From Chitinophagaceae bacterium (lineage in GTDB: Bacteria > Bacteroidota > Bacteroidia > Chitinophagales > Chitinophagaceae): a stretch of DNA of 36,552 bases. The notes under the pieces were generated by a model. That model saw nothing but the letters and a program-made list of their open reading frames with translations. It had not been told where the DNA came from and made no database searches. The first letter of the stretch is position 1, and every line of letters starts with the position of its first letter. Position numbers and translations under genes: made by a program. Shown here piece by piece: positions 4,764 through 26,221 of this stretch. The stretch spans positions 1 through 36,552 of the forward strand of contig CANCPA010000021.1 in the NCBI GenBank assembly GCA_947379895.1, in the 5' to 3' direction.

Positions 4764-5720
4764 ATGTTAAAAATTTGGTCTTTTGAGAGTAATCCTTTTT
4801 TAAATGTTTCAAAGAAAAATTTTAAAAAAGCAGTCAAAATTTCTTCCTACACCGATGCCCAATTATTTGCTAGAAAAGCAGATGCATTCTTCGGGCCTCT
4901 TTATTTGTCTTATCACGTATTTCACCTCGCCTTAGTGGCAGCCTACAATACTTGGAAGGCACAAGGTGGAACATTAAAAGGTTCTACAGCTTTAGTGGAA
5001 ATTAAATTAGCCCAACTTAGTCCAGGGAAAATTGGTGAATGGGATTTATCAATTCAAGGTGTATTTAAGAAGAAAACACCCGGATACATTGCAATTCTGC
5101 CGAATGGTCATAAACCCTTTCAAACAGGGGATAAATTAATGCGAATTAATGCCATTCAACAATTAAAAACAAATTTAACGGGAATTGTAGCCTTAGTCGC
5201 AGTATTAACAGATGTTACCACATTTTACGATGAAATTGTAAGTGCAAACACTACACAGCAAGGTAGTAAAGGCACAAAATTTTCTTATAGTGCCTCAGTT
5301 TTGTTAATCATAAAAACTACTATGGAGGAACTCTATGCTATTTTAGGTGATTGTATGAGACATTTCAAGACAAATCCTGTAGAAGTTAGAACTCTTTTTG
5401 ATTTGGAAACAATCAGGAGCCAAAAACAATCTGTTTTTACGGGCCTCGTACCTATAAATGGGCATACGATGATTGTAGAACGTACATTACTGCCTACCGA
5501 TTCATTCGATGCAATTGTGGATGGTGATACTTATCTTAGTTTTTATCGGGCAATTAATCGGGAAGATAGTTCGAATGGTTACACAATAATCACAGTAGAT
5601 ACGATGACAAATAGGACAATACTTGGTAGTGATTTTAAACTTGATGTTGCCAATAAATATTTGTGTGTAGTAAATACATCAACAATTGTTGCAGGGCATT
5701 ATGAACTAAACTTTAGCTAA
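4764..5720 (+). CDS. uncharacterised 318-residue protein (family A/B, copy A)
   Basis: I do not recognise a functional domain. There is no signal peptide and no transmembrane segment, so it is probably cytoplasmic. Residues ~90-135 carry the motif ILPNGHKPF--G...INAIQQL. This aligns with LFPNG-APF--G...MDAVQTL of the 319-residue protein at 25262-26221, which is a diverged paralogue. The similarity extends through FYDE (vs FYDA) in the middle, and both end in a predicted beta-rich C-terminal third. In shape: an N-terminal segment, a helical centre (~140-210), then a beta-rich end that could be a sandwich-like fold. It is preceded by a 41-bp tandem array and followed by a perfect hairpin and the histidine kinase gene, 87 bp downstream on the same strand. 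Confidence 0.8.
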   Translation: MLKIWSFESNPFLNVSKKNFKKAVKISSYTDAQLFARKADAFFGPLYLSYHVFHLALVAAYNTWKAQGGTLKGSTALVEIKLAQLSPGKIGEWDLSIQGVFKKKTPGYIAILPNGHKPFQTGDKLMRINAIQQLKTNLTGIVALVAVLTDVTTFYDEIVSANTTQQGSKGTKFSYSASVLLIIKTTMEELYAILGDCMRHFKTNPVEVRTLFDLETIRSQKQSVFTGLVPINGHTMIVERTLLPTDSFDAIVDGDTYLSFYRAINREDSSNGYTIITVDTMTNRTILGSDFKLDVANKYLCVVNTSTIVAGHYELNFS

Positions 5721-5744
5721 TTTTAAAAGGTTAATGGTTAATTA

Positions 5745-5794
5745 TTAATGGTTAATTGTTAATGTATAATTTATCATTAACAATTAACCATTAA
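5745..5794. terminator. perfect 20-bp inverted repeat with 10-nt loop
   Basis: The arm TTAATGGTTAATTGTTAATG (5745-5764) is exactly complementary to 5775-5794. It is purely intergenic, 24 bp after the stop of copy A and 14 bp before the kinase ATG. A further partial copy of the arm sits at 5731-5744. It could terminate or attenuate transcription of copy A, or be a repeat insertion. The stem is almost all A-T pairs and no clean U-tract follows. Confidence 0.55.
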
Positions 5795-5807
5795 TTAAAT
5801 TATAAAA

Positions 5808-7790
5808 ATGAAGTCATCTAAATCTTTTTTGAGAATAAGGATTATCTATGTAGCCACAACTGTTTTTTTGGTTGCCCTCTCTGTATATACCTTTATTCAG
5901 ATAAAAAATTTGACGGATACATCTGAGTTAATAAACCACACAAATCAAGTTACACAATCACTTCAAAAAATTTCTACAGATATTATTTTAGCGGAGAGCA
6001 GTAAAAGGGGATTTCTATTATCAGGCGACTCTATACATTTAAGAAAAAGAGATTCAGCCCTTACTAAACTTTTTTCAGAACGTTCACTATTATTTCAACT
6101 TGTAAGTGATAATACGCAACAATTAAAGAATCTCTCGATTCTAGATAGTGCAATTCAAAAGAAAGTAATGAGTATCCGCGATATTCCTAATTCACAAGCG
6201 TTCCTCCTTTCGAGGCCATTTACACAACCTAATATAAAATACTCTGTAAAATCGATGGATTATGTGAGGCTTAATATAGATGTAATGATAGCCGAAGAGT
6301 CATTGTTATTGGCACATAGGACGGTTGAGTATAGTAATCAATCATTTATGACCCCAATTTTCATGATTGTCTTTTTTTTAGGGGCACTCATCATCTTGTG
6401 GGCATCTTACCTCAAAATTACGGCTGCACTTAAAGATGCACATGAATTACAAAATAAATTGACTATTCAAAATATAGGCATTGAAAATCGTTCTCAAGAA
6501 CTGATTATCGCCAATCAAAAACTTCAATTTGAAAGTAGAGAAAAAGAAAATCGGGCGGCAGAATTAGTAATAGCAAATGCTAACCTATTGCTTGAAAGTA
6601 ATGAGAAAGAAAAACGCTCAAAAGAATTAGTAATTGCGAACGCAAACTTGTTACATGAAAGTACTGAAAAAGAAAAACGTTCAGCCGAATTGATGATTGC
6701 AAATGCTAAACTATTATTTGAAAGTACGGAGAAAGAAAATCGTTCTTCTGAATTGATAATTGCAAATAGAAAGTTGTTGTATGAAAGTACGGAGAAGGAA
6801 AATCGGTCTGCTGAATTATTGGTTGCAAATAAAAAGTTGTTGCACGAGAGTACTGAAAAAGAAAATAGAGCAGCAGAATTAGTCATTGCCAATTCAAAGT
6901 TATTGTATGAAAGTAATGAAAATGAGAATCGTTCGGCAGAATTAGTGATAGCAAATGCAAACTTATTACATGAAAGTAAAGAGAAAGAAAGCCGAGCTGC
7001 TGAATTGGTAATTGCCAATTTAGAATTGGCATATCAAATAGAAGAAAAAGAAAAGCGTGCAGAGGAACTGATGAATACAAATAAAGAATTACAGTTGTTT
7101 GCACAAATCGCAAGTCATGATTTGCAGGAACCACTTAGGAAGATTCAGATGTTTGCCTCAAGGATAAAAGAAAAAGAAGTCCCGAATTTTTCTGATACAG
7201 GAAAGGCACATTTTGAAGTGATACAAAATGCAGCGGAAAGAATGCAAATTCTAATACAGGATTTAATAGCTTATGCACAAACAAATAATGAAGAAAGGAA
7301 GTTTGAAAATATTAACTTAAATGAAATTATCAATGATGTCATTAAAGAACTTAGTGAAGTGATTGCTGAAAAAGGTGCAACAATTGAACTCGGTGAATTT
7401 TGTTACGCAAGCATCATTCCCTTTCAGTTCAGTCAATTAATGAATAACCTTATTTCAAATGCATTAAAATTTTCTAATCCTGAGGTTCCCTGCATTATTA
7501 AGATTTTTAGTAGGATAGAAAAGGGCGATAAAAACATAAGTACAAAGCTTTGTCCTAAGAAAAAATACTGTCATATTACATTCTCCGACAATGGTATTGG
7601 CTTTGATACTGTTTACAATGAAAAAATATTTGAAATATTTCAACGCCTACATGGCAAAGAAGTATATATAGGCACAGGCATTGGTCTAGCTATTGTGAAA
7701 AAAATTATAGACAATCACAATGGACTCATCACGGCTGTTGGCAAACCAAACGAAGGCGCCACGTTTGATATTTATTTACCCATAAATTGA
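5808..7790 (+). CDS. CHASE3-type sensor histidine kinase with long coiled-coil repeat
   Basis: A 660-residue membrane sensor kinase. TM1 is at ~11-33. A helical periplasmic region (~35-180) contains SSKRGFLLSGD, typical of CHASE3 domains. TM2 is at ~181-203. From residue 236 to 424 there are nine consecutive 21-residue repeats with core ES-EKENRSAEL-IAN, three heptads each, forming a long signalling coiled coil. The HisKA domain has the phospho-acceptor His437 in SHDLQEPLRK. The ATPase domain shows the N-box NNLISNALKFSN, the G1 box DNGIGFD and the G2 box GTGIGLAIVKK, all intact. It autophosphorylates and should pass phosphate to the response regulator that begins 5 bp after its stop. The input ligand is unknown. 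Confidence 0.93.
   Translation: MKSSKSFLRIRIIYVATTVFLVALSVYTFIQIKNLTDTSELINHTNQVTQSLQKISTDIILAESSKRGFLLSGDSIHLRKRDSALTKLFSERSLLFQLVSDNTQQLKNLSILDSAIQKKVMSIRDIPNSQAFLLSRPFTQPNIKYSVKSMDYVRLNIDVMIAEESLLLAHRTVEYSNQSFMTPIFMIVFFLGALIILWASYLKITAALKDAHELQNKLTIQNIGIENRSQELIIANQKLQFESREKENRAAELVIANANLLLESNEKEKRSKELVIANANLLHESTEKEKRSAELMIANAKLLFESTEKENRSSELIIANRKLLYESTEKENRSAELLVANKKLLHESTEKENRAAELVIANSKLLYESNENENRSAELVIANANLLHESKEKESRAAELVIANLELAYQIEEKEKRAEELMNTNKELQLFAQIASHDLQEPLRKIQMFASRIKEKEVPNFSDTGKAHFEVIQNAAERMQILIQDLIAYAQTNNEERKFENINLNEIINDVIKELSEVIAEKGATIELGEFCYASIIPFQFSQLMNNLISNALKFSNPEVPCIIKIFSRIEKGDKNISTKLCPKKKYCHITFSDNGIGFDTVYNEKIFEIFQRLHGKEVYIGTGIGLAIVKKIIDNHNGLITAVGKPNEGATFDIYLPIN
6513..7079 (+). 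repeat. nine 63-bp in-frame repeats within the kinase gene
   Basis: Each 63-bp unit encodes a 21-residue block starting at an AAT (Asn) codon: 6513, 6576, 6639, 6702, 6765, 6828, 6891, 6954 and 7017. Amino acids are better conserved than third positions, so protein-level selection acts on the repeat. A long open frame on the opposite strand across this region is a by-product of the repeat. Confidence 0.92.
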
Positions 7791-7795
7791 ATGAA

Positions 7796-8251
7796 ATGAG
7801 CAATTACTACAAAACACTAAATGTGTTGCTTGCTGATGACGATGAAAACGATCGTATGAATTTTAAAGAAGCCTTAGAAGAATCAAAGATGGAAACGTCT
7901 CTTGTTTCAGTAAATGATGGTGTAGCATTGATGGAATATCTGATGCGAGAGGATATCGAACTGCCAAAATTATTATTTCTCGATTTGAATATGCCACGTA
8001 AAAGTGGGATGGAATGTTTGAAGGAAATTAAGAGTATCACGAAATTAAGAGACATCGTAATTGCTATTTATTCGACTTCTTCATCAGAGAAAGATATTGA
8101 AGATACTTTTTATAGTGGGGCAAATGTGTATATGAGAAAGCCAAATGATTTTGGAAAATTAAAGGAGTTATTGAATAAGATAGTCACATCAGTTAATGTT
8201 TATAGTGATCCTCCATTCAATATTGCGAATTTCTTATTGAAAATCATGTAA
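7796..8251 (+). CDS. CheY-like response regulator (single receiver domain)
   Basis: A 151-residue receiver domain with no output domain. The acidic pocket DDD is at residues 14-16, the phospho-acceptor is Asp63 (LFLDLNMPRKSG), the switch Ser/Thr is around residues 93-95 (YSTSS), and the conserved Lys is 115 (MRKPN). It resembles the Rcp1-like regulators found beside CHASE3 or phytochrome-type kinases. I chose ATG 7796. The earlier in-frame TTG at 7787 would overlap the kinase stop by 4 bp and add only three residues. It is almost certainly co-transcribed with, and phosphorylated by, the upstream kinase. Signalling is then probably by protein-protein contact, since no DNA-binding domain is present. 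Confidence 0.93.
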   Translation: MSNYYKTLNVLLADDDENDRMNFKEALEESKMETSLVSVNDGVALMEYLMREDIELPKLLFLDLNMPRKSGMECLKEIKSITKLRDIVIAIYSTSSSEKDIEDTFYSGANVYMRKPNDFGKLKELLNKIVTSVNVYSDPPFNIANFLLKIM

Positions 8252-8291
8252 GTTCAGTAAGGGGAGAGTAATAATTAATTGATTTTATGAA

Positions 8292-8336
8292 TTAAGATAG
8301 GCAGTTACCTTATCAGGAACTGCCTATCTTAATATT
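8292..8336. terminator. bidirectional rho-independent terminator
   Basis: TTAAGATAGGCAGTT (8292-8306) pairs perfectly with 8318-8332, giving a 15-bp stem and an 11-nt loop flanked by A/T runs. It lies between the convergent response regulator (+) and iron permease (-) genes, so it can serve both. Confidence 0.8.
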
Positions 8337-8406
8337 TTTAGATTTTGTGAATTGTTTACTTTTCTTAATTCAAAATCTTTTATTGCTGACTCGAAATACT
8401 CAATTT

Positions 8407-8805
8407 TTAATCGGACTTTTCTTCTTTTGCTAGTTCAATTAATTCTTCATATTCCTTAGAAAGTTCTGCTGTTTCGTGCTCTGTCCTTTCTTCAATACTA
8501 ATGAATTTATTATTTGCGTCTGCATGTGATGCTATTAATTCATTCACCTTTAAATGAAGAGAAGCAGAAAACCGATTGAATGATTTTTGTATTACAAATA
8601 AGGTAAGAAAAGTAAGTCCTAGAATTAAATCGCCAATTTTATCGTGAACTGAATATTGTGCAAATTCTTTACTACACAGCCAATAAATTACTGTAAAAAA
8701 TGCAAGGATAAAAGTTATTGGATTACCTAATATTAAATTTGCAATTGAAGTTAGCTTTTCAAAACTAATTTCTAAATGCCTATATAATTTCTTGATGTTC
8801 TTCAA
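8407..8805 (-). CDS. low-affinity iron permease family protein
   Basis: A 132-residue membrane protein with two hydrophobic helices (~27-47 and ~58-76). The pattern GNPITFILAFFTVIYWL then DKIGDLILGLTFLTLFVIQKSFNR, followed by LHLKVNELIASH, is characteristic of the bacterial Iron_permease (PF04120) family, named after yeast Fet4. Transport activity in bacteria is poorly documented. The C-terminal ~40 residues are acidic and probably a cytoplasmic coiled coil. It is the third gene of a minus-strand operon: its start overlaps the end of the DUF2061 gene by 26 bp, which implies translational coupling. Confidence 0.88.
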   Translation of the reverse strand: MKNIKKLYRHLEISFEKLTSIANLILGNPITFILAFFTVIYWLCSKEFAQYSVHDKIGDLILGLTFLTLFVIQKSFNRFSASLHLKVNELIASHADANNKFISIEERTEHETAELSKEYEELIELAKEEKSD

Positions 8806-9061
8806 CTTTTAAATTCTTTTTATAGATTATTCTACCCCATTTTACATTGTTCCAATATCGTTCATGAAGATAATAGGCAAAAGAAGTATAGATATTACTT
8901 ACAATTAAAAATTTGATAGTAACATTAATCTGCTTAGTGAAAAAATAGATGAATAAAAAATCAAGAACAATAATAATAAGTCGATAGGAAATAGTTTTGA
9001 CTAATGATCTTTGATATTTTTCTTTTGCTCTATGTGTATGTGGGAGTAGTCTTTCTATCAT
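8780..9061 (-). CDS. DUF2061 family small membrane protein
   Basis: A 93-residue protein starting at the ATG at 9061, whose ATGA overlaps the stop of the universal stress protein gene. A longer frame reading back to 9190 runs inside that gene and is not used. The motif RSLVKTISYRLIIIVLDFLFIYFFT, followed by YLHERYWNNVKWG, is the DUF2061 signature: two short membrane helices and a terminal H-E-R-x-W. The function is unknown. The family is often found near sulfate-assimilation or stress genes. Here it is sandwiched in an operon between a universal stress protein and an iron permease. Confidence 0.85.
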   Translation of the reverse strand: MIERLLPHTHRAKEKYQRSLVKTISYRLIIIVLDFLFIYFFTKQINVTIKFLIVSNIYTSFAYYLHERYWNNVKWGRIIYKKNLKVEEHQEII

Positions 9062-9528
9062 TTTTTTGAAGGTACTATTAATATGGGAATAGACGAATGT
9101 CGGATTACTTTTTCTGCAACACTCCCAATTAAAAAGAGTTCGACACCTGTTCTGCCATGTGTACCTAATACAATTAAATTGGCCTTCCATTTCTTTGCAA
9201 CCGTTAAAATTTCTTCTTCAGGTGTACCATCAACAATATATGAAGTCACTTGATGCTCGCTGAAAATAGTTTCAATGAAATGTTGATGTATACGTTCGAA
9301 ATTTTTCTTTTGACCGTTTTCAATTTCACTTTCCGTCATTACATCTTCATTCATTCCCATCCCCATTCCCATGATATCGTTGTTCAACATAATAATAGGT
9401 CTTTCAACTACACTTACTAAAGCAACTCCTGAATGCATTTGTTCTACATATTGTAGTGCTGCAATTGCCACATTTTTCGATTCAGGCTCATTGTCTATTG
9501 CAATGAGTATCCTTTGAATATTATTCAT
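9058..9528 (-). CDS. universal stress protein (UspA family)
   Basis: A 156-residue cytoplasmic protein. The start is placed at the ATG at 9528, giving MNNIQRILIAIDNEPESK, the canonical UspA opening. An upstream extension to 9639 is hydrophobic nonsense. The C-terminal ATP-binding motif GTHGRTGVELFLIGSVAEKV fits G-x2-G-x9-G-S, so it is probably an ATP-binding Usp. A Met/Gly-rich insertion (MGMGMGMNED) lies near the middle. It is the first gene of the operon usp-DUF2061-iron permease. A palindrome at 9603-9632, 75 bp upstream, could be its control site. Confidence 0.92.
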   Translation of the reverse strand: MNNIQRILIAIDNEPESKNVAIAALQYVEQMHSGVALVSVVERPIIMLNNDIMGMGMGMNEDVMTESEIENGQKKNFERIHQHFIETIFSEHQVTSYIVDGTPEEEILTVAKKWKANLIVLGTHGRTGVELFLIGSVAEKVIRHSSIPILIVPSKK

Positions 9529-9602
9529 AAAAACAATTTTTAAATTTAATAATTTATTTGGAAGAAAAATGGTTGATACTGAGATAAATACAAGGGTAAT
9601 TA

Positions 9603-9632
9603 GATTTGACAACTTTTTATAATTGTCAAATC
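9603..9632. promoter_or_regulatory. inverted repeat upstream of the usp operon
   Basis: GATTTGACAA (9603-9612) and TTGTCAAATC (9623-9632) are perfect complements separated by 10 bp. The centre-to-centre distance of 20 bp, two helical turns, suits a dimeric regulator. The site is 75-104 bp upstream of the usp start and downstream of the YceI gene on the same strand. A weak terminator for YceI is the alternative, but no U-tract follows on the minus strand. Confidence 0.45.
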
Positions 9633-9738
9633 CTAACAAGTCAACTTGATTGAATTCTTGTTATTTTAATACCCTCTATATTCTATTGTTTCTTCAAAAA
9701 GTTTGTAGGCTATTTAGATTCAATATTAATAGTAATTA

Positions 9739-10308
9739 CTACTTTTCTAATTCCATTTTAGAATCTTGTTTCGTCATATTTGTCAACTCTAATTCGCATG
9801 ATATCTTAACTTCATCACTGACCATAAATCCACCTTTTTCTATTGCAGAATTCCAGATAAGTCCAAAATCTCCTCTGTTAATGATTCCTGTAATTGAGAA
9901 TCCGGCTTTTTCGTTTCCCCATGAATCAGTAATAATACCACCAAATTCAGCATTAAGTTTAATATTTTGTGTTATTCCGTTAATACTCAAATCTCCCCAT
10001 AAATCATAATTTTCATCCTCATTTGGCGAAATCATTGTGCTTGCTAAAAACGTTATTTGTTTATGGTTTTCTAAATCAAAAAAGTCAGCACTTTTTAAAT
10101 GTTCGTCACGCTTTTCATCACCTGTAGATATTGAATCAGTATCAATCCATAAATCTATTTCTACTGTTGTAAAATCCTTTCCAGATGTATAGATGCTTGC
10201 ATCAAACACTTTAAAGTTTCCTTTTACATGAGCAATCATTAAATGCCTTACTTTAAACTCAATTGAACTGTGCATTTGGTCAATCGACCACTTTGTTTCT
10301 TTTTTCAT
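9739..10308 (-). CDS. YceI family protein
   Basis: A 189-residue protein with the lipocalin-like YceI fold that binds polyisoprenoid or similar hydrophobic ligands. Characteristic parts are WSIDQMHSSIEFKVRHLMIAHVKGNF at the N-terminus, the central DEHLKSADFFD and ITFLAS, then GDLSINGITQ and NRGDFGLIW toward the C-terminus. No signal peptide is visible: the protein begins MKKETKWSID. It is therefore probably cytoplasmic, like many Bacteroidota YceI paralogues and unlike periplasmic E. coli YceI. The run of minus-strand stress genes continues on both sides. Confidence 0.93.
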   Translation of the reverse strand: MKKETKWSIDQMHSSIEFKVRHLMIAHVKGNFKVFDASIYTSGKDFTTVEIDLWIDTDSISTGDEKRDEHLKSADFFDLENHKQITFLASTMISPNEDENYDLWGDLSINGITQNIKLNAEFGGIITDSWGNEKAGFSITGIINRGDFGLIWNSAIEKGGFMVSDEVKISCELELTNMTKQDSKMELEK

Positions 10309-10384
10309 TGTTACTATTTTTATTTTTTAAAAACTAAATTGAAATATCTATTTATGTTTTATAAGGATTAACCGATATTAAAAA

Positions 10385-10765
10385 CTATTGCTTAAGACAA
10401 TTTATTACATCAATTTCTGATTTGTCTTTTTTAATTTCTTGTCGAAGCAATGTAAACAAGCTCATATAAATATTGGCCATCCAAACCAATGCAAATATTG
10501 ATATCAAATAACCTGTCCAATTAATAGTGAGTAATTTGAAGTCCGTTACCCAAATGAAAAAAAGTGATATATAATGGCTAAAACAATACTCACATGTAAA
10601 TAGATAAAAGAATTTCCTTTTAAAACTATTATGGCAATTCCTACTTCTTTCAATACAATAAGTACGTGGCTCACGAAATATTTCTTCATTAGTTACTGTC
10701 CAAACGATACAAGCTATTGGGATTGGTAAAATGAAAAGCCATAGAAGCTGATTTGCAATGTCCAT
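10385..10765 (-). CDS. hypothetical membrane protein with Cys/His cluster
   Basis: A 126-residue protein with hydrophobic segments at ~6-24, ~55-73 and ~82-105. Two cysteines in RTYCIERSRNC and a C-E-Y-C-F-S-H motif at the start of the second helix could bind a metal or form a disulfide. I cannot assign a named family. The C-x-x-C-x-S/H motif before a helix loosely recalls DUF1360-like membrane proteins. Its position inside the stress island suggests an envelope-related role, but that is inference only. Confidence 0.65.
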   Translation of the reverse strand: MDIANQLLWLFILPIPIACIVWTVTNEEIFREPRTYCIERSRNCHNSFKRKFFYLFTCEYCFSHYISLFFIWVTDFKLLTINWTGYLISIFALVWMANIYMSLFTLLRQEIKKDKSEIDVINCLKQ

Positions 10766-10810
10766 TATTTAAGTATTGATGAGGAATTTTGAAATAATGA
10801 ATTATTTTAG

Positions 10811-11104
10811 TTAATGCCAATAGCCAAGTACCCAATGTAAACCCCTCGGTCGTTGTTGCCAATATCCCTGAGAATAGGCTCTCCCCGCTAAATGTTTGTG
10901 CCAATAACCATTACTATGAGTGTATAAATGGTTATTTCGATTCCAAATCCAATTTCCTTCAATCCATACATCATTTTCGTTTATTTTAGGAGGACGCTTC
11001 ACTTCTTCAAAACAAGGTACTTCTGCAACATGTCCTTCTGCTAAACACCCTACAAATAAATATAGTATGATAAAAATGAGGATAGCAATTAGCCACTTTG
11101 TCAT
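10811..11104 (-). CDS. YXWGXW-type repeat lipoprotein (copy 1)
   Basis: A 97-residue predicted lipoprotein: a hydrophobic N-terminus ends in the lipobox LFVGC (Cys19). The mature part has aromatic-rich repeats WIEGNWIWN, NGYWHKH and GYWQQRPRGLHWVLGYWH, with Trp/Tyr-Gly spacing like the YXWGXW repeat family of envelope proteins. About half its residues match the next gene upstream (11261-11554), in the same order and with the same length, so the two are a tandem duplication. The molecular function is unknown. Confidence 0.82.
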   Translation of the reverse strand: MTKWLIAILIFIILYLFVGCLAEGHVAEVPCFEEVKRPPKINENDVWIEGNWIWNRNNHLYTHSNGYWHKHLAGRAYSQGYWQQRPRGLHWVLGYWH

Positions 11105-11260
11105 TATAAATAATTTTTCTCTGTTGTGTTAAATGTTTGAATATTAGTTTAAAAAGGATTTTTTTTTTTTCAAGAAGGTATAATAATTTTTAGTAAATGA
11201 TTTATCCGATAATTGGTCTATTCGTAATCTAATTGAAGACATTATATTTTTTTCTTTTTC

Positions 11261-11554
11261 TTAATGCCATCTTCCAGGCACCCACCGTTTACCTTTTGGA
11301 CTTTTTTGCCAGAAACCTTGTGAGTACTGTCTTCCTATTATTGGTTTTCTCCAACTTCCGTTATCATGATGGTAAGCATGATCATGTCTATTCCAATTCC
11401 AATTACCTTCTATCCAGATATGTGCTACAGTCGGTTGTGGAGGACGTGGCATTTCAATATAAGAAGGTTCCTCTGAAATATATCCTGCACCTAGACAACC
11501 GCTAAAGAATATGAGAAGTGAAGATAAACTGATAACTATAAGTAAACTTTTCAT
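11261..11554 (-). CDS. YXWGXW-type repeat lipoprotein (copy 2)
   Basis: A 97-residue paralogue of the gene at 10811-11104. It has the lipobox FFSGC (Cys19), then the shared skeleton PRPP...WIEGNWNWNRHDHAYHH, GRQYSQGFWQ and a terminal GRWH. His-rich stretches (HDHAYHHD) could chelate metal. The spacer between the two copies (11105-11260) is AT-rich with a long T-run and shows no gene. The two copies appear to be anchored in the membrane facing the periplasm. Whether they differ in role cannot be told from sequence. Confidence 0.82.
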   Translation of the reverse strand: MKSLLIVISLSSLLIFFSGCLGAGYISEEPSYIEMPRPPQPTVAHIWIEGNWNWNRHDHAYHHDNGSWRKPIIGRQYSQGFWQKSPKGKRWVPGRWH

Positions 11555-11598
11555 TATATGATTTTTTTTTACTAAAGAATTAGCGAGTACAGAAAATG

Positions 11599-11630
11599 AA
11601 ATAGTGGGAGTTTAATTACTCCCACTATTT
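11599..11630 (-). terminator. terminator after the BON-domain gene
   Basis: AAATAGTGGGAGT (11599-11611) pairs perfectly with 11618-11630, giving a 13-bp stem and a 6-nt loop. It begins 2 bp past the stop codon of the minus-strand BON gene (last base 11632). The U-tract on the minus strand is imperfect (TTCATTTT). Confidence 0.75.
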
Positions 11631-11631
11631 A

Positions 11632-12300
11632 TTAAAACTTTAATCTATCGTAAACTATTTCTAGCTTATTATCAACATTCCAAACTCCAGGAGCATTCCA
11701 AGCGATTCTTGCAGCTTCATCTTTTTGATATAAAGAGCTAACAGTTCCTGTAAGAGTTACTCTGTTTCCTATAACATTTACCATGATATTCTGAGTGCTT
11801 ACTGACCAATTTCTTGCAAGTGCATTTTCAATTTCGTCCCTTTCAACCTCATCTTGAGTTTGTAAATTGATAATAACATTGTTTATCACACCTTTTACTC
11901 CAGGTTGTTTAACTGCAGCTGCTTTTGCCGCTACTTTTTGATAGTTCCATTCAAGTTCTCCTTCTAGAGTTACCCAACCATCTTCAACTTTCACTTTCAA
12001 GGTGTCATTAGGTACATCCCAATTCCATTTAAAGGCACTCAATATTTCTGTTGCAATTCTGTTGTCATCAATAAAACTAGTGTCACCAAAGTCAACAACA
12101 ATTTTTTCAACAACAGCCTTTACACCTGCAACCCTTTTAGCAGCATCCTCTGCTTCTGTTTTCTTTGAATAGTTGTTTACAGTTCCTGTTAAGGTAACAA
12201 CTCCATCTTTACATGTTACGCCAATTTCAGCGGCATTTAGTAAGGGTTCCCACTTAATTGCATCTTGTACATCTTTTTGTAATTCTTCGTTACTTTTCAT
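11632..12300 (-). CDS. triple BON-domain protein
   Basis: A 222-residue protein made of three BON modules at about residues 3-72, 78-150 and 155-222. Each has the pattern I--AL-W...V---DGVVTLTGTV...A---A..PGVK-V-N-. BON domains (as in OsmY) bind phospholipid or membranes and are linked to osmotic-shock protection. OsmY is periplasmic, but this protein has no signal peptide (MKSNEELQKDVQDAIKW), so it is probably cytoplasmic. The aromatic N/K-W-x-V motif at the start of each domain is conserved. A palindrome lies 18 bp upstream of the start. Confidence 0.92.
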   Translation of the reverse strand: MKSNEELQKDVQDAIKWEPLLNAAEIGVTCKDGVVTLTGTVNNYSKKTEAEDAAKRVAGVKAVVEKIVVDFGDTSFIDDNRIATEILSAFKWNWDVPNDTLKVKVEDGWVTLEGELEWNYQKVAAKAAAVKQPGVKGVINNVIINLQTQDEVERDEIENALARNWSVSTQNIMVNVIGNRVTLTGTVSSLYQKDEAARIAWNAPGVWNVDNKLEIVYDRLKF

Positions 12301-12317
12301 TTGTTTCTATTTTTAGC

Positions 12318-12335: not shown

Positions 12336-12477
12336 ACATTTTTTTTAGTTTAAATTTGACTATTATTTGCTACCCAATATTTTCAATTTGAGGACTTGTT
12401 TAAATCAATAATTTAAAAAGGAATAACTGATTTGTTAGTAAAGTATTGTTTATTACTTTTAGCTTTAAACTTGTCTT

Positions 12478-17831: not shown

Positions 17832-19448
17832 CTAATTAATATCAATTAATTTTTCTTGCATCTTTTTATCGAGTCCATAAATGTCTTCTCTAAAATTGAT
17901 AGTTCCCGATACATCAACCCATGCTGTAAAGTATTTAATAATGACTTGAACATGTGGTTTTGCATCTACCCATATTTCTTTTGTTTGATTCATTAGTGAT
18001 AAAATTGAATCGGCAGTATAAATAGGTTGCCGCCGTAAAAGGAACTTAGCTAATCCAGATGGGTTGCCAATACGGATACACCCATGACTAAAGGATCTTT
18101 TCGAATTTAAGAAAGCATCCTTATTAGGTGTATCATGAAGATAAATATTGTATTTGTTTGGAAATAGGAACTTTACTTTTCCAAGGGCATTGTTCAAACC
18201 GGGTTTTTGTCTTATTTCGGGTATTTGTCCGTTGTATTTCACCACTTCCATATTATGCTTTGTAAGATAATTTCTGTTTCTATTCATGGCAGGCATTACT
18301 TCATTTTTCGTGATGCTAGTAGGAACATTCCAATAGGGACTGAATACGATATAACGTATGTTTTCCGAAAATATAACTGTATTATGAGCTTCAGTACCAA
18401 CGATTACAGGCATCGAAAAACTATATTTTCCTGAATCATATACACGTAATTTATATTCAGGGATATTCACTACTATTCTGTCTTTCATAGAAGTATCTGA
18501 AGGCATCCATCGTGCCCTTTCCATATTAATTAAAATTTTGGTAATCAGTTTTTGAAGGGAAATATTTAATTTTTTAGTTGTTAAACTCCCTATCTTACCC
18601 GTTTCAGGAAGTCCAAACCTATGCTGAAAATTCTTTACAGCTAAAACCATTGAAGGGTTAAATTGTATTGAGGTATCTAGTTCCTTATAATCTCCTAACA
18701 AAAACAACCTGTTTTTAATAATTGGCAAAACGCTGCTACTATCACCAATTTTATAAGTACAATTTACTTTTATTGAATCCCATTTGAAATTGTTTTGAAG
18801 ATTTTGATATTTTGCTAATTGCTTTTCTAATAACCGATATTGACGATTTATTGGCTCCTCTCTTTTTGTATTAGTGCCCCTGCCATCCACCAAAGAATCT
18901 AGAATCTCTATGATATTTAATTTTTTCCGAGGAATATACCATCCTAGTTGACTCGCATTTAATTCACTGCCATGATAAGTCTTTGTTGCATACCTAAAAT
19001 ATTGTCCTGTAAGTAACAGTTCTACTTTTTTTGTGATACTATCTTTTATACCCTTTTTGGAATCAATATTTTCTAAAAGTCTTTCATATAAATATTGAAG
19101 TTGAGTATTGTAAATGGAACTGTCATCAAGATTAGTAATTAATTCGTTTTGGAGATTATAAAAGTTATGTGCCTGTAATGTCATTCCATTCGTATCGAAC
19201 CAAGCAAATTTAAAATTACGTTGTGTATAAAAATCGAAATATTCCGAATGATATTTTATTATTGAGTCTTGCTTTGAAATGAAATTTTCCAGATAATTAC
19301 TATCTAAAAAAAGATGATTATCATTTGATTTCGATTGAATGCTTTTTACATGTACACTTTTGAAAATCAAAAAAGAGATAACAAAAATAAATAGGCTGAT
19401 TAATACAATTTGGATTGGTGAAATTATGTTTGATATATTTATTCTCAT
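17832..19448 (-). CDS. YcbB-like L,D-transpeptidase
   Basis: A 538-residue envelope enzyme with an N-terminal membrane anchor at ~12-30. A scaffold region (~50-230) is followed by a peptidoglycan-binding-type domain (~236-296, VKNFQHRFGLPETGKIGSLT). The YkuD catalytic domain (~325-480) carries the catalytic Cys around residue 457 in SFSHGCIRIGNP. INMERARWMP before the catalytic domain is characteristic of the YcbB/LdtD family. Such enzymes make 3-3 cross-links in peptidoglycan and support growth under envelope stress or beta-lactams. Length and domain order are normal. It belongs to the minus-strand stress island. Confidence 0.93.
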   Translation of the reverse strand: MRINISNIISPIQIVLISLFIFVISFLIFKSVHVKSIQSKSNDNHLFLDSNYLENFISKQDSIIKYHSEYFDFYTQRNFKFAWFDTNGMTLQAHNFYNLQNELITNLDDSSIYNTQLQYLYERLLENIDSKKGIKDSITKKVELLLTGQYFRYATKTYHGSELNASQLGWYIPRKKLNIIEILDSLVDGRGTNTKREEPINRQYRLLEKQLAKYQNLQNNFKWDSIKVNCTYKIGDSSSVLPIIKNRLFLLGDYKELDTSIQFNPSMVLAVKNFQHRFGLPETGKIGSLTTKKLNISLQKLITKILINMERARWMPSDTSMKDRIVVNIPEYKLRVYDSGKYSFSMPVIVGTEAHNTVIFSENIRYIVFSPYWNVPTSITKNEVMPAMNRNRNYLTKHNMEVVKYNGQIPEIRQKPGLNNALGKVKFLFPNKYNIYLHDTPNKDAFLNSKRSFSHGCIRIGNPSGLAKFLLRRQPIYTADSILSLMNQTKEIWVDAKPHVQVIIKYFTAWVDVSGTINFREDIYGLDKKMQEKLIDIN

Positions 19449-19537
19449 TTTTTGATATCTGATGCTTTAGCCATTCATTTAAAAATGAAGCCAACAGAAT
19501 ACCGCAAAATTGCCTATTTATGCCATTATTAATATTA

Positions 19538-19595
19538 CAGGACTGAATGTAAAAGTATCAAAATTCACAGTTTGTTACTTTTGCATTCAGTCCTG
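19538..19595. terminator. 20-bp stem inverted repeat
   Basis: The arms at 19538-19557 (CAGGACTGAATGTAAAAGTA) and 19576-19595 pair with a single G-U wobble around an 18-nt loop. It lies between the heme-binding gene (stop at 19710) and the YcbB-like gene (start 19448), both minus strand. A T-run follows on the plus strand rather than the minus strand, so it could be a terminator used poorly or an unrelated palindromic repeat. Confidence 0.55.
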
Positions 19596-19709
19596 TTTTA
19601 TACGTACCGTGGAAAGCTTTTACCTGATTTATAATTTTCTAGCACCTATAGTACTATTTGTTATCACTTAATTTGTACTAGGGGGAGATGAGTAAGTAGC
19701 ATTAATCAG

Positions 19710-20162
19710 TTAAAACTTCATAAGATTATTGCCAAAAATAGCTAACTCATTATCCTGCTTAATTGCATCATTTGGACCCATTTTTCCTTTTCGTCCACTC
19801 ACTCCAATTCCACCTATTACTTTCCCTAGTTTATCTGTTATAATAACGCCTCCTGTGAATCCTGAGAAATTATCGTCCGTCCAATTTCGCATATCAAAAT
19901 CTACTTCTTTCTCATTTTTTGGGAAGGAAGCCCATTGAATCGTGTCACGTTGACCAACAACAGCCGAATAGGCTTTTGATTGTGCCAGTTTTATACTTGC
20001 GGGAACCACTCCATCCATCGCACAAAATGCGATTAATCGTCCCACTGCATCGGTAACTGCTACTGCAACTGGCATGCCTCCGTCAATACTTGCTTCAGTA
20101 ACGACTGCATTTACGATTTCCATAGCTTCTTTGCTTGAAATACTCGAAATAATAATTGGCAT
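19710..20162 (-). CDS. GlcG/HbpS-like heme-binding protein (DUF336)
   Basis: A 150-residue protein with the GlcG/HbpS fold: ISSKEAMEIVNAVVTEASIDGGMPVAVAVTDAVGRLIAFCAMDG, then ASIKLAQSKAYSAV, and GGVIITD--GKVIGGIGVSG. HbpS-type proteins bind heme and act as extracellular redox sensors; other members (GlcG, PduO C-terminal domain) bind corrinoid or small ligands. There is no signal peptide here, so it is probably cytoplasmic. The usual C-terminal DE--A--G pattern appears as DAIKQDNELAIFG. It is possibly an oxidative/heme-stress member of the island. Confidence 0.9.
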   Translation of the reverse strand: MPIIISSISSKEAMEIVNAVVTEASIDGGMPVAVAVTDAVGRLIAFCAMDGVVPASIKLAQSKAYSAVVGQRDTIQWASFPKNEKEVDFDMRNWTDDNFSGFTGGVIITDKLGKVIGGIGVSGRKGKMGPNDAIKQDNELAIFGNNLMKF

Positions 20163-20387
20163 TTTCTAAATTTTAAATTGTGAATTAATTTTTGTCCTAC
20201 TCAGTTGCATTACCCAAATGAAATTAAATGAAAATTAAAGATTATTAAGTTTTTATTTCAAAAAATGCCAGATTTAATGATTGTAAATACTATAAATCCT
20301 TGTGCTTCTTCATGAAACTTTATTTTGTTCTTTATGGTAAAACATTCTGACTAGTTGCTAATTTGTTATCAAAGAATTTTATTTAAT

Positions 20388-21602
20388 CTATTTGTGAATC
20401 AAATTTTTGTACCTTACTAATGCCTCCATAAAATAATAATCTCCAAAGGAACAAGGCACATCCGTATTCTCTGTTTTGTGATAATATTGAGTACAATTTA
20501 ATAGCAAACAATTCGTGCCTTTTCCTTCTGAAAAATAAGGGGCTTGACAAAGAGATGTCAACATTTTTTCTGCTTCGGTAAGATAATGCTGTTGTTGTTT
20601 TGCATCTTTCAAATAGCTTTGCATCTCTATTAGAGCCGAACAAACCACTGCCGAGGCACTCGCATCCCGATGGTTAAGCGGCGACTGAAAATCCCAATTT
20701 GCTACATAGTCTTTTGGTAGATGATTAATAAAGTAATCACTCACACGCATCGCCTTTTCCAAATATTGCTCATCTTTTGTAATTCGGTAAGCAGTCACTA
20801 ATCCATAAATCATCCAAGCATGTCCCCTCGACCAAGTACTCGAATCGACATCTCCCTGCAATTGTCCCTGATTCAACATTTTTCCTGATGATTTATCATA
20901 GCGTACTATATGAAAACTGCCACCATCGTTTCTAATTAAATCTCGATATGAATGGGCAATATGTGACAAACATCGCTCATATCTTGTTGGATCACCACCG
21001 TTTTGTGATGACCAAAATAGAAGTTCCAAATTCATCATGATATCTATCACAACAGGAACCGAATTTGGAAGGGGCTTGTCATCCCAATCAGAGGTATATA
21101 ATCCAATGTTTGGCAAATACCTTTTATCCATTGTATTAGCAGCAGTCAATAATACCTCTTTGTAATTTTTGCAGATGGAATCATTTGGCAATAATCGATA
21201 ACCGTTTCCAAAGCTGCAACCAAAACGAAAGCCTAAGTCGTGGGTTTTGGTATTAAATTTTTCTGCATCAATTCCTTTTGTCCATTTGATAGCCCAATCC
21301 TTAAAGCGTTGTTCTTTACTCAATTCGTACGCCCGCCACAAACAACCGGGATAGAAACCACTCGTCCAATCTGTTGATTTTTTGAGTTTCCACGTTAAAT
21401 CTTTTGTCGCATAAGTGGGATACAATAATGGATCTTTTACTTCGTCAACAGATTTTGCCAAATAATCTAAGGACTTGTTAATGGCATTTTCTACCAAACC
21501 ATCAAGTTGATTCGTTTTACAAGTCGATGAATGAAAAACACAGCACCCATTAAATAATAGGCAAATCAAACTAGCAACAATAAGATGGAATATCTTTTTC
21601 AT
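20388..21602 (-). CDS. GH88 unsaturated glucuronyl hydrolase, lipoprotein
   Basis: A 404-residue enzyme. The ATG at 21602 is preferred over a TTG three codons upstream because it gives MKKIFHLIVASLICLLFNGC, a lipoprotein signal with its Cys at residue 20. Family GH88 hydrates the 4,5-unsaturated uronic acid left by polysaccharide lyases. Visible motifs are TSGFYPGCLW, THDLGFRFG (first conserved Asp), VVIDIMMNLELLFW (second conserved Asp), SSTWSRGHAWMIYG and DASASAVVCSALIE. It was probably attached to the outer membrane or periplasmic face. It sits next to the heparinase II-like lyase on the same strand, the expected partner, though 410 bp of repeats separate them. Confidence 0.93.
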   Translation of the reverse strand: MKKIFHLIVASLICLLFNGCCVFHSSTCKTNQLDGLVENAINKSLDYLAKSVDEVKDPLLYPTYATKDLTWKLKKSTDWTSGFYPGCLWRAYELSKEQRFKDWAIKWTKGIDAEKFNTKTHDLGFRFGCSFGNGYRLLPNDSICKNYKEVLLTAANTMDKRYLPNIGLYTSDWDDKPLPNSVPVVIDIMMNLELLFWSSQNGGDPTRYERCLSHIAHSYRDLIRNDGGSFHIVRYDKSSGKMLNQGQLQGDVDSSTWSRGHAWMIYGLVTAYRITKDEQYLEKAMRVSDYFINHLPKDYVANWDFQSPLNHRDASASAVVCSALIEMQSYLKDAKQQQHYLTEAEKMLTSLCQAPYFSEGKGTNCLLLNCTQYYHKTENTDVPCSFGDYYFMEALVRYKNLIHK

Positions 21603-22012
21603 ATCAAACAATCATTTTTTATTTTTCTAACAGAAGACTTAAAGGCAAATTTAAGTTTCTATTTTTCTGTTATTACTTAGGAGATTTTACCACAATGAAC
21701 ACAAATGTTTTTACAAAGATGCACAAGGATTTATTATTTATAGTAACTCAGATTCAACTATTTTGTTAGAAAACTTAGTGTTCCTTGCCTTTTTCCTTGT
21801 TTACTCTGTGGTAAAACCTCCTGAGTAGTAACCTTTTTCTTTATTCTTTGTGCATCTTAGCGACTTCGAGTCTTCGTGTTGAAAAAAAACTTAGCCTCCT
21901 TTTTCATAAATAGATTTCTTTTCAATGTGATCTTCTTTTCAATAAAATATAGAAAAAACTATGTGTTTCTAAGTAAACCTAATAGACCAATGTTGTAGCC
22001 TTTTTCCCCTTT
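21603..22012. repeat. 410-bp spacer with large imperfect inverted repeat
   Basis: The left arm TTACTTAGGAGATTTTACCACA (21673-21694) pairs with TGTGGTAAAACCTCCTGAGTAG (21806-21827), with inner partial pairing and a ~110-nt loop. A further block, GCGACTTCGAGTCTTCGTGT (21860-21879), recurs at 26612-26631. Such 'CCACA...CACAAAG' hairpins are dispersed non-coding repeats in many environmental Bacteroidota. No gene is seen in this stretch. Confidence 0.75.
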
Positions 22013-24319
22013 TTATTTTGTGCTAAAACCAATTGGTGTCAAACTAAAACGTCCTCCTTTACTCTCTATATAAACGGTTCCAGCACTATCCTTTACGCTG
22101 ATGTTTTTCGTCGTTGAACTGCTTTTGAATTTCCATTCTCCGGCCTTCAAATCGGCAATCAATACCTTATAATCTTTATTTGAATCTCCAATAGTAAAGG
22201 CGATTTCCTTGTCATTTTTGTCTAGAGACAATTGTTGTGCAACTATCCTGTTATTGATAGCAACCGCTAAATAATTCCCCTTTTCCGCATAAGACTTTGT
22301 AACAGCATAGGAAGTAGGAGAGGGCTTTGCATCCATTACCTGTATTACATTCAGGAAGTTATCCGATTTTGATGCTTGTTTTGGCGACAATTCTATTCTC
22401 CACCTACCTGCATCCTCTTGTGTTACAGAACCCCAATTCTTTCCATCTACCCAATATTCTTTACCCTCTCCACCAATTGATTCAATGTTTTGATTATTCA
22501 TTTCCGGTAGCAGAATGTCATCTTGCAGCTTTCCATTTCGGCCATTATTCGTATTCTCCACTATAATCTTTCCATTCTTAATAGTAGGTTCATTTTGTGC
22601 ATGTAATAACCACGACTTTTTGAAACTTGCATTCGTCGAAACCACTTTATCCATCACTATCAATGCACCCGGAATCGCCTCGTTTTTAAGATTTAGGAAC
22701 ACAAAACTCCTCCTCACCGTATCAACTTTTGCCGGATAGATAGCCACATTCTTAGGCACATTATAACAGGGAGTCATATCGCCTTTCAGGTACGAGTAAT
22801 CAGGCATAACTCCTTCAGAAATTTCAGTTGCCATGATTTGTGCATTCTTTCCCCCTGCAATCATTTGTTGACTCGTACTCCATGCTTTATTATTGAATGA
22901 AAACTGTCCACCATCTCTTGATTTGGTTTTTTTGTTCCAACCTTCTAAGGGAGTAGGTTCGTTAGGATCTAGAATCAATAATGAATTATGTGCCACCGTG
23001 CGGATATAATAATTGATATAATCCTCCTTTCCCCATCCGTTTTCTTCCTCTTTTCCCTGATAGATACCCGCATCAATAGCAAGATGTCCTTTGTAGTAAA
23101 TACTGAAGTGGCCATCATCAAGATGCACATGATTTCTCGCATTATACTCCCTCATATTCATCAAGACTACCAAGGCATTTGAGTTGTAATCCTTCCTATC
23201 CAAATCCCATTTTGTTCGAGCAATCATGATACCGGAAGGAGAGGGGAAAAAGCGTGTCAATCCCAAATAATCAAAAGGCTTTGAAGGGATAGTTGGATTA
23301 TAATATATAAAAGCTCGAGCACTCAATACTTCAAGTCTGTTCAATTTCAATTTCGCATACGATTGTAGAAACCCATCTTTTGATAGGGATGCTGCAAGAG
23401 GAATAAACTGTTGATACAAATCGCCCATGTCTATATGATTGTGACAATCTCCCTCGGGCATGCCATCCATATCTGTTTTTTGAGGAATTTGTGCATAAAT
23501 ATCACGAAATGTGACCGCACTATTTTCGGAACTATAAGGGTTTAACCCTACTTTATCTAATATAAAAGCCTGCAATATTTCGTTACCATAACGAACATGC
23601 AGGTACTGACTTCCCTGATGAAAAGCACCTGATTTGTACATGAGATTTCTAGAGGGGGCAAAACTATCGATCTGTTCTTTATACTCAGTATCAAAAATAG
23701 TAGGGTCTTCATCATGAATTGCAAGGCCCATTGCTAAGAAAACAGTGGGTGCCATTTCACAATAATGTCCTGTGAGGTATTCTTTTTTTACTTTAGTAAA
23801 AGGACAGTATTCCCCTAGGCAGCAAACCCGTTTTAATTCCATTGCTAAGACTGTTTTATCCTCATTACTTAACAAAGGATAGCACCAATCATATACCAAA
23901 GCAGCGCCGAATACTGCCTCATAAGCCCACGAATTACCTTCATAGCCACTTAATTTATTAATAGAGGGCAAATAAGATTTCGCAAGTTTAATGGCGCTCA
24001 ATCCTGCCTCTTTTTCATGTTCGGGATCCACTAAATAGGAAAGTGCTAGTGCCTCCATTTTTTGTCGGATAGCCTCTTTAGGATTACCATCTGCCGAAAC
24101 GCCGTCTGTAGAATAGGTACGTTGTTGATTGAATGCCTCTCTAATAGCAGCAAAATCAGGACTCGACATCCGTTGTTTGATATCGGCAAGTTCACTTTGC
24201 TTGACCAATAATCTGGGATGTGAAGGCAATTGTATGGGTTTTGTTGCAACTATAGTTGATTGTGCTATTGCCAAGCTAACCATAAAAGAGGCACAAGTGC
24301 CTACTATAAATCCTTTCAT
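22013..24319 (-). CDS. heparinase II-like polysaccharide lyase (alginate/GAG lyase superfamily)
   Basis: A 768-residue secreted enzyme with a signal peptide at ~1-19 (MVSLAIAQ). An N-terminal alpha-toroid (~30-380) includes HPRLLVKQSELADIKQRM, GHYCEMAP and HQGSQYLHVRYG, candidate His/Tyr catalytic residues. A central beta-sheet domain has ARNHVHLDDGHFSIYYKG, then AIDAGIYQG and TVAHNSLLILDPNE. The NH-HLD-G-F-IYYKG block is that of heparinase II-type lyases (PL21-like). Such enzymes cleave uronic-acid polysaccharides by beta-elimination and leave unsaturated ends for GH88, encoded just downstream. The substrate (heparan, chondroitin, alginate or another uronan) cannot be fixed from sequence. 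Confidence 0.88.
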   Translation of the reverse strand: MKGFIVGTCASFMVSLAIAQSTIVATKPIQLPSHPRLLVKQSELADIKQRMSSPDFAAIREAFNQQRTYSTDGVSADGNPKEAIRQKMEALALSYLVDPEHEKEAGLSAIKLAKSYLPSINKLSGYEGNSWAYEAVFGAALVYDWCYPLLSNEDKTVLAMELKRVCCLGEYCPFTKVKKEYLTGHYCEMAPTVFLAMGLAIHDEDPTIFDTEYKEQIDSFAPSRNLMYKSGAFHQGSQYLHVRYGNEILQAFILDKVGLNPYSSENSAVTFRDIYAQIPQKTDMDGMPEGDCHNHIDMGDLYQQFIPLAASLSKDGFLQSYAKLKLNRLEVLSARAFIYYNPTIPSKPFDYLGLTRFFPSPSGIMIARTKWDLDRKDYNSNALVVLMNMREYNARNHVHLDDGHFSIYYKGHLAIDAGIYQGKEEENGWGKEDYINYYIRTVAHNSLLILDPNEPTPLEGWNKKTKSRDGGQFSFNNKAWSTSQQMIAGGKNAQIMATEISEGVMPDYSYLKGDMTPCYNVPKNVAIYPAKVDTVRRSFVFLNLKNEAIPGALIVMDKVVSTNASFKKSWLLHAQNEPTIKNGKIIVENTNNGRNGKLQDDILLPEMNNQNIESIGGEGKEYWVDGKNWGSVTQEDAGRWRIELSPKQASKSDNFLNVIQVMDAKPSPTSYAVTKSYAEKGNYLAVAINNRIVAQQLSLDKNDKEIAFTIGDSNKDYKVLIADLKAGEWKFKSSSTTKNISVKDSAGTVYIESKGGRFSLTPIGFSTK

Positions 24320-24688
24320 TTTTTCTTTTTTAATTCAATAAATAGTTTGCAATAATGGAGAGGAAATAAGAAACAGGGTTTATTTCAAGACTAGTATAAC
24401 TTGTGGCGTAAGACTGCAATCGATTCATAAAACCTTTTCTATGTGAGTGTGTTGACTAGACAGCTGCCCTAAAAGTTTAAAAAGGAAACTAATTTTTCCA
24501 ATGATTAAAAAGTATTTCTAGCAATTCCATGCAAGGTCAATTATGAAAGTAAAGACACTATTTATGAAAGTTTTGTAGGATTATGTTTTAAATGATAACA
24601 AAATGCTGAATCATCCTTTCAGATTGAGGCAGATATTAGATGCTATCAAGTTTTTAGAGAAGACAGTTTTTACAATAAAAAAAGCTTG

Positions 24689-25010
24689 CTCGAGTGTCAT
24701 CCCGCAGGGATCTTTAACACAATAAACAGTTCTTTAATTTTGAGTTAGATCCCTATGGGATGACAGCTCGAGTAAAACAAAATAGCTGATTTCTTCGTCT
24801 TTTAAATGCATTATCCCATGTTTCAAAAAAGATGTCAGCAGTTTGTCGAAATCGGTTTGAATTGTAATAGTCACATACACTTCGACAAGCTGCTAATGAC
24901 ATCTTATAAATTGTAATGGACTCATTGATAATCAACCTGTCAGACTGAGGCTCTCGAAGTCGGGTCGAATGGTTATAGTTGCTTGCACTTCGATAAACTC
25001 AGTGTGACAG
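24689..25010. repeat. cluster of three different REP-like inverted repeats
   Basis: Element 1: CTCGAG-TGTCATCCC-CAGGGATCT (24689-24713) pairs with 24748-24772. Element 2: GATGTCAGCAGTTTGTCGAA (24831-24850) pairs with 24879-24903, one arm having a 2-base bulge. Element 3: CTGTCAGACTGAG...TCGAAGT (24937-24960) pairs with ACTTCGATAAACTCAGTGTG (24987-25006) through ACAG at 25010. Arms are 22-25 bp with moderate mismatch and loops are 26-35 nt. They resemble repetitive extragenic palindromes common in Bacteroidota genomes. They are non-coding. Confidence 0.85.
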
Positions 25011-25112
25011 TCTTGCTGATATTCGTAACCAACTGCAATGTCATCTCAAAAAACTTAAGAAACTATCATTACTGCCTCAGTGTGACAGTCTCGTTGATAT
25101 TCGTTACCAACT
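24998..25112 (+). repeat. 37-bp direct repeat, 78 bp apart
   Basis: CTCAGTGTGACAGTC followed by T-GCTGATATTCGTAACCAACT at 24998-25034 recurs at 25076-25112 with three or four substitutions. The copies share the right arm of REP-like element 3, so this looks like a partial duplication of that element. Confidence 0.75.
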
Positions 25113-25151
25113 AAAACGACTATCAATTTTAGGCAGTCGAAGGCTAAAATT

Positions 25152-25184
25152 GAAAAGAGGCTTTATTCAAAAAATAAAACCTCT
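25152..25184 (-). terminator. rho-independent terminator of the family A/B copy B gene
   Basis: AGAGGCTTTATT (25156-25167) pairs with AATAAAACCTCT (25173-25184) with one mismatch and a 5-nt loop. On the minus strand the stem is followed by TTTT (25152-25155), as expected for a terminator of the minus-strand gene ending at 25262. An adjacent 10-bp hairpin (25123-25132 with 25144-25153) overlaps it by two bases. Confidence 0.7.
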
Positions 25185-25261
25185 CTTGTATCCTAACAAA
25201 AATGAACAAACCTAAAACTTAATACCTAATACCTACAACTTAATACTTACAACGTACAACT

Positions 25262-26221
25262 CTACAACACTTTAACCCTACATTTTCCTAACGTGTGTAA
25301 ATCGGCATTCATTACCTTTAAGAACGTCTGAGTGGCAGGATCACCGCAATTACTCAATAATCTTGTGACAGTTGCCATTCCGGGTACTTCAATATAAAGG
25401 AGACTAATAACCCCTGTTCTAATATCGGTTAAGAAAAAGCGTAATGGCGCAGTGGTTAAATTTGTGAACTGCAACTCTTGAGTGTCAGGGTTCGCAAATG
25501 TGCGGGTGAAAACATTTTTTGTTTTCATTGGATTTACACTTACTATGAAACTTTTTTGCAATTTTCTACGCATTGCAGCCTCATCATAATACTTTGCAAC
25601 AAACATCGGTGTTTTGTAATAAAAGTCAATGAGTTTACCAAAGTTCCCTTCCATAACATCACATAACTCCTTCCTTGCAAATTCAACTGCCATACTATCA
25701 TTATAGGTTGATTTTTTCGATGTATCTTTTGTATTAAATGCTAACGTCATTGCATCGTAAAAAGCCTGAATTACAATTTTAATAGTCGCAAGGCTAGCAT
25801 CAGCACCGATTGACTTTAATAAAGTTTGAACGGCATCCATTTTATGTTGTTGCTTACCTATTGTAAAAGGTGCATTACCGTTAGGAAACAATACATTGTA
25901 TTCAATAGACTCCACTTTATACACATGCTTAATTTCTGTTTGCCATTCATCTAATGTGATTGGCATTCCGGTTTCTAACTCCTTGAAAGTGGCAACTTTG
26001 CCTCCTTGTTTATCTTTTTGACTTAAAAAGTCGCCCTCTGCTGTTTCAAGGTTAGTTACTTTAGATGCAATAAGGTCATAACAGGTCTTAGCAATTGGCG
26101 ATGTGGCACTATCTATAAAAAGACTATCGCGATGTTGTTTGCCAATAAAGATGGCTAAGGGATAGTTGCCTCTTGTGGCGGCTTCAAATGGGTTTTTGAA
26201 AATACTCCTTTTTTTAGACAT
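25262..26221 (-). CDS. uncharacterised 319-residue protein (family A/B, copy B)
   Basis: The diverged paralogue of the protein at 4764-5720. It has nearly identical length, a similar N-terminus (S-F--NPF), and a central LFPNGNAPFTIGKQQHKMDAVQTLL aligning with ILPNGHKPFQTG and the following INAIQQL. It also shares FYDA (vs FYDE) and a beta-rich C-terminus. There is no signal peptide, membrane helix or catalytic motif I can name. A related family occurs in Bacteroidota, to my recollection, without known function. It is monocistronic and followed by a terminator and the REP-like cluster. Upstream lie 1.26 kb of non-coding DNA that contain the second 41-bp tandem array. Confidence 0.8.
   Translation of the reverse strand: MSKKRSIFKNPFEAATRGNYPLAIFIGKQHRDSLFIDSATSPIAKTCYDLIASKVTNLETAEGDFLSQKDKQGGKVATFKELETGMPITLDEWQTEIKHVYKVESIEYNVLFPNGNAPFTIGKQQHKMDAVQTLLKSIGADASLATIKIVIQAFYDAMTLAFNTKDTSKKSTYNDSMAVEFARKELCDVMEGNFGKLIDFYYKTPMFVAKYYDEAAMRRKLQKSFIVSVNPMKTKNVFTRTFANPDTQELQFTNLTTAPLRFFLTDIRTGVISLLYIEVPGMATVTRLLSNCGDPATQTFLKVMNADLHTLGKCRVKVL

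Follow-up and report, generated by a model that had tools for sequence, protein, structure and literature searches.

A new protein family encoded beside dyad-symmetric tandem DNA arrays with a period of 41 or 42 bp

Genes of a new protein family in the Chitinophagales, and in one further order of the phylum, almost always lie next to tandem DNA arrays whose period is locked to 41 or 42 bp, whose units are often dyad-symmetric and whose unit sequence is nearly free. We tentatively favour, at rather less than even confidence, the view that gene and adjacent array form a two-part module in which the protein reads the phase and shape of the array and spreads arrays to other sites. Such a module would work like a REP/RAYT system without being one.

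Results

Two paralogues and their arrays

The DNA analysed here, termed the window, is the entire contig C21 (36,552 bp) of a genome of 5.32 Mb in 401 contigs. An earlier note, made from the letters of the window, had drawn attention to two open reading frames of 318 and 319 residues; both are present, each preceded by an array.

4764..5720, + strand: family member A, 318 aa (open reading frame, sequence comparison, structure model)
4255..4481, no strand: array A, upstream of gene A with a gap of 282 bp to the start codon; period 41 bp, 5.5 units
25262..26221, - strand: family member B, 319 aa (open reading frame, sequence comparison)
26911..27128, no strand: array B, upstream of gene B with a gap of 689 bp to the start codon; period 41 bp, 5.3 units

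The description of A and B as diverged paralogues holds, as the proteins are homologous, displaying 24% identity across 237 aligned residues (E 3e-15). TRF assigns both arrays a period of 41, with 5.5 copies at 79% matches for array A and 5.3 copies at 88% matches for array B, and the two consensus units bear no relation to one another. The presence of period-41 arrays with unrelated units before both genes is thus as had been claimed, but the gaps of 269 and ~710 bp are replaced by the measured 282 and 689 bp. Taken by themselves, arrays A and B display weak dyads (z 1.1 and 0.2). The core AAATAGACCYATTYCAT is common to array A and the period-42 array of L009, an 82%-identical paralogue of gene A. 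Array B resembles the array upstream of L018 on contig C67, an 81%-identical paralogue of gene B, and is related to a solo array on C63.

The genome encodes 12 full-length copies of the family, in addition to fragments and a distant pair. An array of 41 or 42 bp lies directly upstream of 11 of the 12 copies, while the upstream array of the twelfth, L017, is decayed but gives peaks in autocorrelation at 82 and 41. Starting 73 bp beyond an array picked blind as a control (L044) is a gene for a 322-aa distant homologue (hhalign 96% probability, E 1.7e-9), which has a 63%-identical paralogue on C60, likewise with a 41-bp array. The close relatives found among named records are encoded in Chitinophagaceae MAGs. 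At one locus (L011:6874-7298) the reading frame of the family gene extends through a 42-bp array, to give an open frame of 500 residues.

Gene-array linkage in the genus

Of the 65 genus genes with ≥700 bp of DNA upstream, 58 have an array of this period class within 700 bp, and inclusion of gene B, whose array end is 689 bp off, brings the count to 59/65. The corresponding value for control genes of the same genome is 11/463 (Fisher p ~1e-59, odds ratio ~400). The linkage is far above chance, and the coincidence that the earlier note allowed for, having only two cases to hand, can be set aside. These data also bear out its proposal of an undescribed family tied to phased tandem DNA, homologues being rich in upstream arrays of 40-42 bp. 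That note had staked its proposal on such an excess among homologues and on the alignment of the two proteins, and both were found.

Most exceptions to the linkage carry decayed 41/42 arrays. Clear peaks at 41/82 or 42/84 are evident in L017, L079, L100, L110 and L116, though TRF reports no array at these loci, and L071, also devoid of a TRF array, displays a weak peak at 41. No 41/42 peaks were detected in L090, L122, L125 and L129, of which L125 and L129 have <300 bp of upstream DNA. The downstream flanks of the genus genes contain no array (0/74), and neither a recurring neighbour gene nor a conserved operon partner of the family was found in the genus.

Wider distribution and the side of the array

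A profile search of 398 genomes sampled from the order recovered family members in 31 of them, belonging to 13 of 166 genera, in most cases accompanied by 41/42-bp arrays or by weaker 41/42 periodicity. In genus g147, represented by four near-complete genomes, an upstream array is present at 23 of 25 loci. The phylum sample contained one family-bearing genome outside the order, and homologues of the N-terminal domain occur in 25 of the 150 genomes of the taxonomic family (f29) to which that genome belongs. In this other order all of the homologues read (20/20; 19 loci and L303) have a 41/42 periodicity immediately 3' of the gene, although some of these periodicities are decayed (identity 0.52-0.83); a further homologue, L305 in G569, has no TRF array. 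The protein family is large, with up to 19 matches per genome in two orders, near-complete genomes included. A phage or plasmid origin was dropped because phages, plasmids and viral contigs contained no match to the family.

The 3' location of the array in another order shows that it is not a promoter feature but a partner co-inherited with the gene. The upstream location described in the earlier note consequently stands for the Chitinophagales but not as an essential trait, arrays being 3' of the gene in the other order and solo elsewhere. This bears on the proposal that the array is a cis-regulatory operator of the adjacent family gene, which we consider very unlikely. While the array is indeed upstream at most Chitinophagales loci, the operator model does not account for the 3' arrays of the other order or for solo arrays, which often lie between the 3' ends of convergent genes, and the protein is not tracked by the unit sequence.

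Period and symmetry of the arrays

TRF gave the gene-linked arrays of the genus a short period of 41 in 22 cases and 42 in 44, the sole exception being one reported at 118. Coding repeats were rejected as an explanation, since the 41-bp period of 22 arrays is no multiple of 3. The units are contiguous, without unique spacers. At L153, L248, L249 and L250 in G344 the array end is conserved, comprising a short hairpin and then a T8 run, and is terminator-like.

Ungapped dyads in the consensus units were scored against shuffled units (p<0.05), and exceeded them in frequency in all groups examined. By this measure dyads are present in 29/66 arrays of the genus, 12/22 of g147, 13/13 of the G344 solo arrays, 8/16 arrays of other families and 16/20 of the other order; background arrays of the window's own genome gave 7/15. 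A dyad in a tandem array creates a second dyad half a period on, so that dyad centres recur every 20.5-21 bp, and, as the period is locked to about four helical turns, these centres would lie on one face of the helix. The earlier suggestion that a putative cooperative protein binds the array would fit dyads at each half period.

Folding of the units is much more favourable than that of column-permuted controls, with both strands behaving alike: sense and antisense fold energies do not differ (p=0.63). Within the dyads, G-T and A-C mismatches are about equal (333/392 and 57/62). The equivalence of the strands and of the two mismatch classes argues for selection on DNA and not on a transcript. 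An RNA system, in which a transcript of the array would form a string of hairpins and, with the protein bound to it, a ribonucleoprotein, might be suggested by the self-complementarity of the units, the location of some arrays 30-50 bp from the start codon, the terminator-like hairpin and T8 at the end of several G344 arrays, and the f29 array just 3' of the gene. Such a system would not, however, explain the lock at 41/42 nt, and there is no excess of G-U pairs. The hairpin reading was set aside because there is no strand bias and no Rfam match in the window, and we regard it as quite unlikely.

Freedom of the unit sequence

Unit identity between paralogues is mostly near the shuffled baseline (0.43), and is low even for some proteins that are 85-88% identical. 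Thus L062 and L074, 88%-identical paralogues in one genome, have unrelated units. By contrast, nearly all protein pairs of >65% identity have arrays of equal period, one exception being gene A and L009 (82% identical, 41 vs 42). An element that retains period and symmetry while its sequence is almost unconstrained is the opposite of an ordinary binding site.

A sequence-specific binder whose specificity changes fast, with units particular to each paralogue and with array and solo arrays serving as operator, partition or anchoring sites, would be an alternative explanation, although an unlikely one. Unit cores are sometimes common to close paralogues (A/L009, B/L018, L010/L013/L061), the solo arrays of g147 at one orthologous locus match the gene-linked unit type of that genome, and dyads suit a dimer. 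The unrelated units of L062 and L074 are difficult to reconcile with such a binder, as is the protein itself, in which neither an HTH nor any other DNA-binding domain was detected. In protein pairs whose arrays have diverged, the amino-acid differences are scattered along the chain with no clear hypervariable stretch, and a hypervariable recognition segment was therefore rejected.

In the two-part module that we tentatively favour, the protein would assemble on its own array in dimeric or oligomeric form, recognizing phase and dyad or hairpin shape over sequence, and the protein-array complex would keep arrays homogeneous and allow them to spread in trans. The more specific proposition that the protein recognizes helical period and dyad shape, not sequence, builds and homogenizes the array and seeds copies elsewhere is one that we hold to be doubtful. 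If the linked protein does read phase and shape, it would be recognizing DNA in a new way, and the arrays would constitute a new class of dispersed repeat in bacteria, one that has its own gene.

The protein

AlphaFold2 returned a confident model (pLDDT 87, 88.6 for the N-terminal domain) displaying two ~58-residue helices with shorter helices, followed by a β-domain. In member A the N-terminal bundle of long helices spans residues ~1-220 and the C-terminal β-sandwich or jelly-roll-like domain residues ~220-318. The N-terminal domain is the conserved core, as the f29 members have little else.

Searches of Pfam, NCBIfam, PHROGs, PADLOC and PDB sequences gave no match above chance, and neither a DNA-binding domain nor a catalytic motif was recognized. 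Candidates from Pfam, NCBIfam and PADLOC, such as CvfB_WH, Meiotic_rec114, Integrase_1 and PtuA, were rejected as chance-level matches seen in one or two members each (Integrase_1, E 0.0098, 1/12 members). The only invariant residues in A2 are W93, L144 and Q222. A conserved acidic or His set was not seen, and no HxH/Tyr set was found across 77 sequences. The median pI of 8.9 is only mildly basic.

The β-domain resembles PirA (Z 10.2 over 94 residues, 14% identity) and the Ena pilus jelly roll (Z 9.1 at an rmsd of 7.1), a resemblance in fold only. Matches of the helical domain to McpS, LemA, BAR and Tc/AHL coiled coils were rejected as reflecting no more than a common helix arrangement. HTH, Rep or ParB domains were not found by sequence, nor among the fold matches listed, which are weak.

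Solo and background arrays

Solo arrays resembling the gene-linked ones occur at about a dozen places in the window's own genome and at many in G344, where five such arrays lie within 200 kb. In the genomes lacking the family that were sampled, no such arrays were present in 200 kb of G017 or 69 kb of G005, a small sample, so that arrays may also exist in genomes lacking such genes. When orthologous sites were compared across three close relatives of G344, the solo array was in some cases missing, in some present and in some built of a different unit type, demonstrating gain, loss or replacement between close species. At the L251 site, the one locus checked, the solo unit type is that found upstream of the genome's own family gene. 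Some of the G344 solo copies have several hundred bp of flank in common and may therefore move as larger units. Dispersal of arrays would, in the module proposed here, be driven by the protein; solo arrays may also have been left behind when genes were lost, or have been copied by ordinary recombination. A ~130-bp dispersed repeat, distinct from the 41-bp arrays, is present in many intergenic regions of G344 (L248-L255, L180-L184).

Intergenic arrays of ~42 bp other than the gene-linked ones occur at 10-15 per 800 kb. Period-42 background arrays (also 63 and 84) were observed beside unrelated genes at L020:8869-9064, L024:9715-9920, L039:5578-5765 and other control loci; several are dyad-symmetric, and one set is found again at several sites of the genome. 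Such arrays lend some substance to the notion that those beside the family are ordinary minisatellites piling up in the intergenic DNA of these genomes. This explanation is highly improbable in view of the odds ratio for linkage, the restriction to two periods, the retention of linkage across orders while the side of the array flips, and the presence of dyads in all groups.

Relation to known systems

The attC sites of integrons are imperfect dyads of variable sequence whose shape is kept. The array dyads are similar in that sequence varies while shape is retained; they differ from the attC/IntI system in their strict tandem period and in the lack of a tyrosine recombinase and of gene cassettes. 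Like the arrays, CRISPR repeats are regular, frequently palindromic in part and located beside a gene dedicated to them, but here the units abut, with no unique spacers and periods of 41/42 only, and no cas genes were present among the ten window genes scanned. Iterons and parS sites resemble the arrays as phased DNA repeats beside the gene of their protein (here with dyads spaced at ~21 bp). They differ in that the present arrays are chromosomal, have no Rep, ParB or HTH protein that could be found, belong to many paralogues per genome and contain units that drift between close homologues.

REP/REPIN elements and RAYT comprise palindromic extragenic repeats with a dedicated gene (PMC3116915). 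Likeness to the present arrays extends to extragenic palindromes beside a gene, copies in trans, repeat types that differ by paralogue and some tandem clusters. RAYT, however, has a Y1/HUH tyrosine transposase, whereas the family described here has neither a Pfam match nor a conserved His/Tyr set, and the arrays are contiguous, with a fixed 41/42-bp period and barely conserved unit sequence. REP heads are GTAG/CGTC-tagged and 20-40 bp in length; no common head was seen by eye in the units. In layout REP/RAYT is the closest analogue; the module is not, however, a member of that system since the RAYT transposase is absent. Searches of open-access text revealed nothing on such arrays and, as no known family or system fits, the module is, within that literature, taken to be new in kind.

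Other repeats near the family genes

AT-rich repeats of 7, 14 or 21 bp lie right behind the stop codons of genes A and B (window positions 5718-5769 and 25208-25261) and of L018 (L018:8570-8670). Genus-wide, such repeats follow 24 of 77 family genes and 43 of 502 controls, a modest excess. In the window, a 63-bp in-frame repeat of ~8 copies (6530-7020) is located within a CHASE3/HisKA/HATPase histidine kinase (5808-7790), where it probably lengthens a coiled coil.
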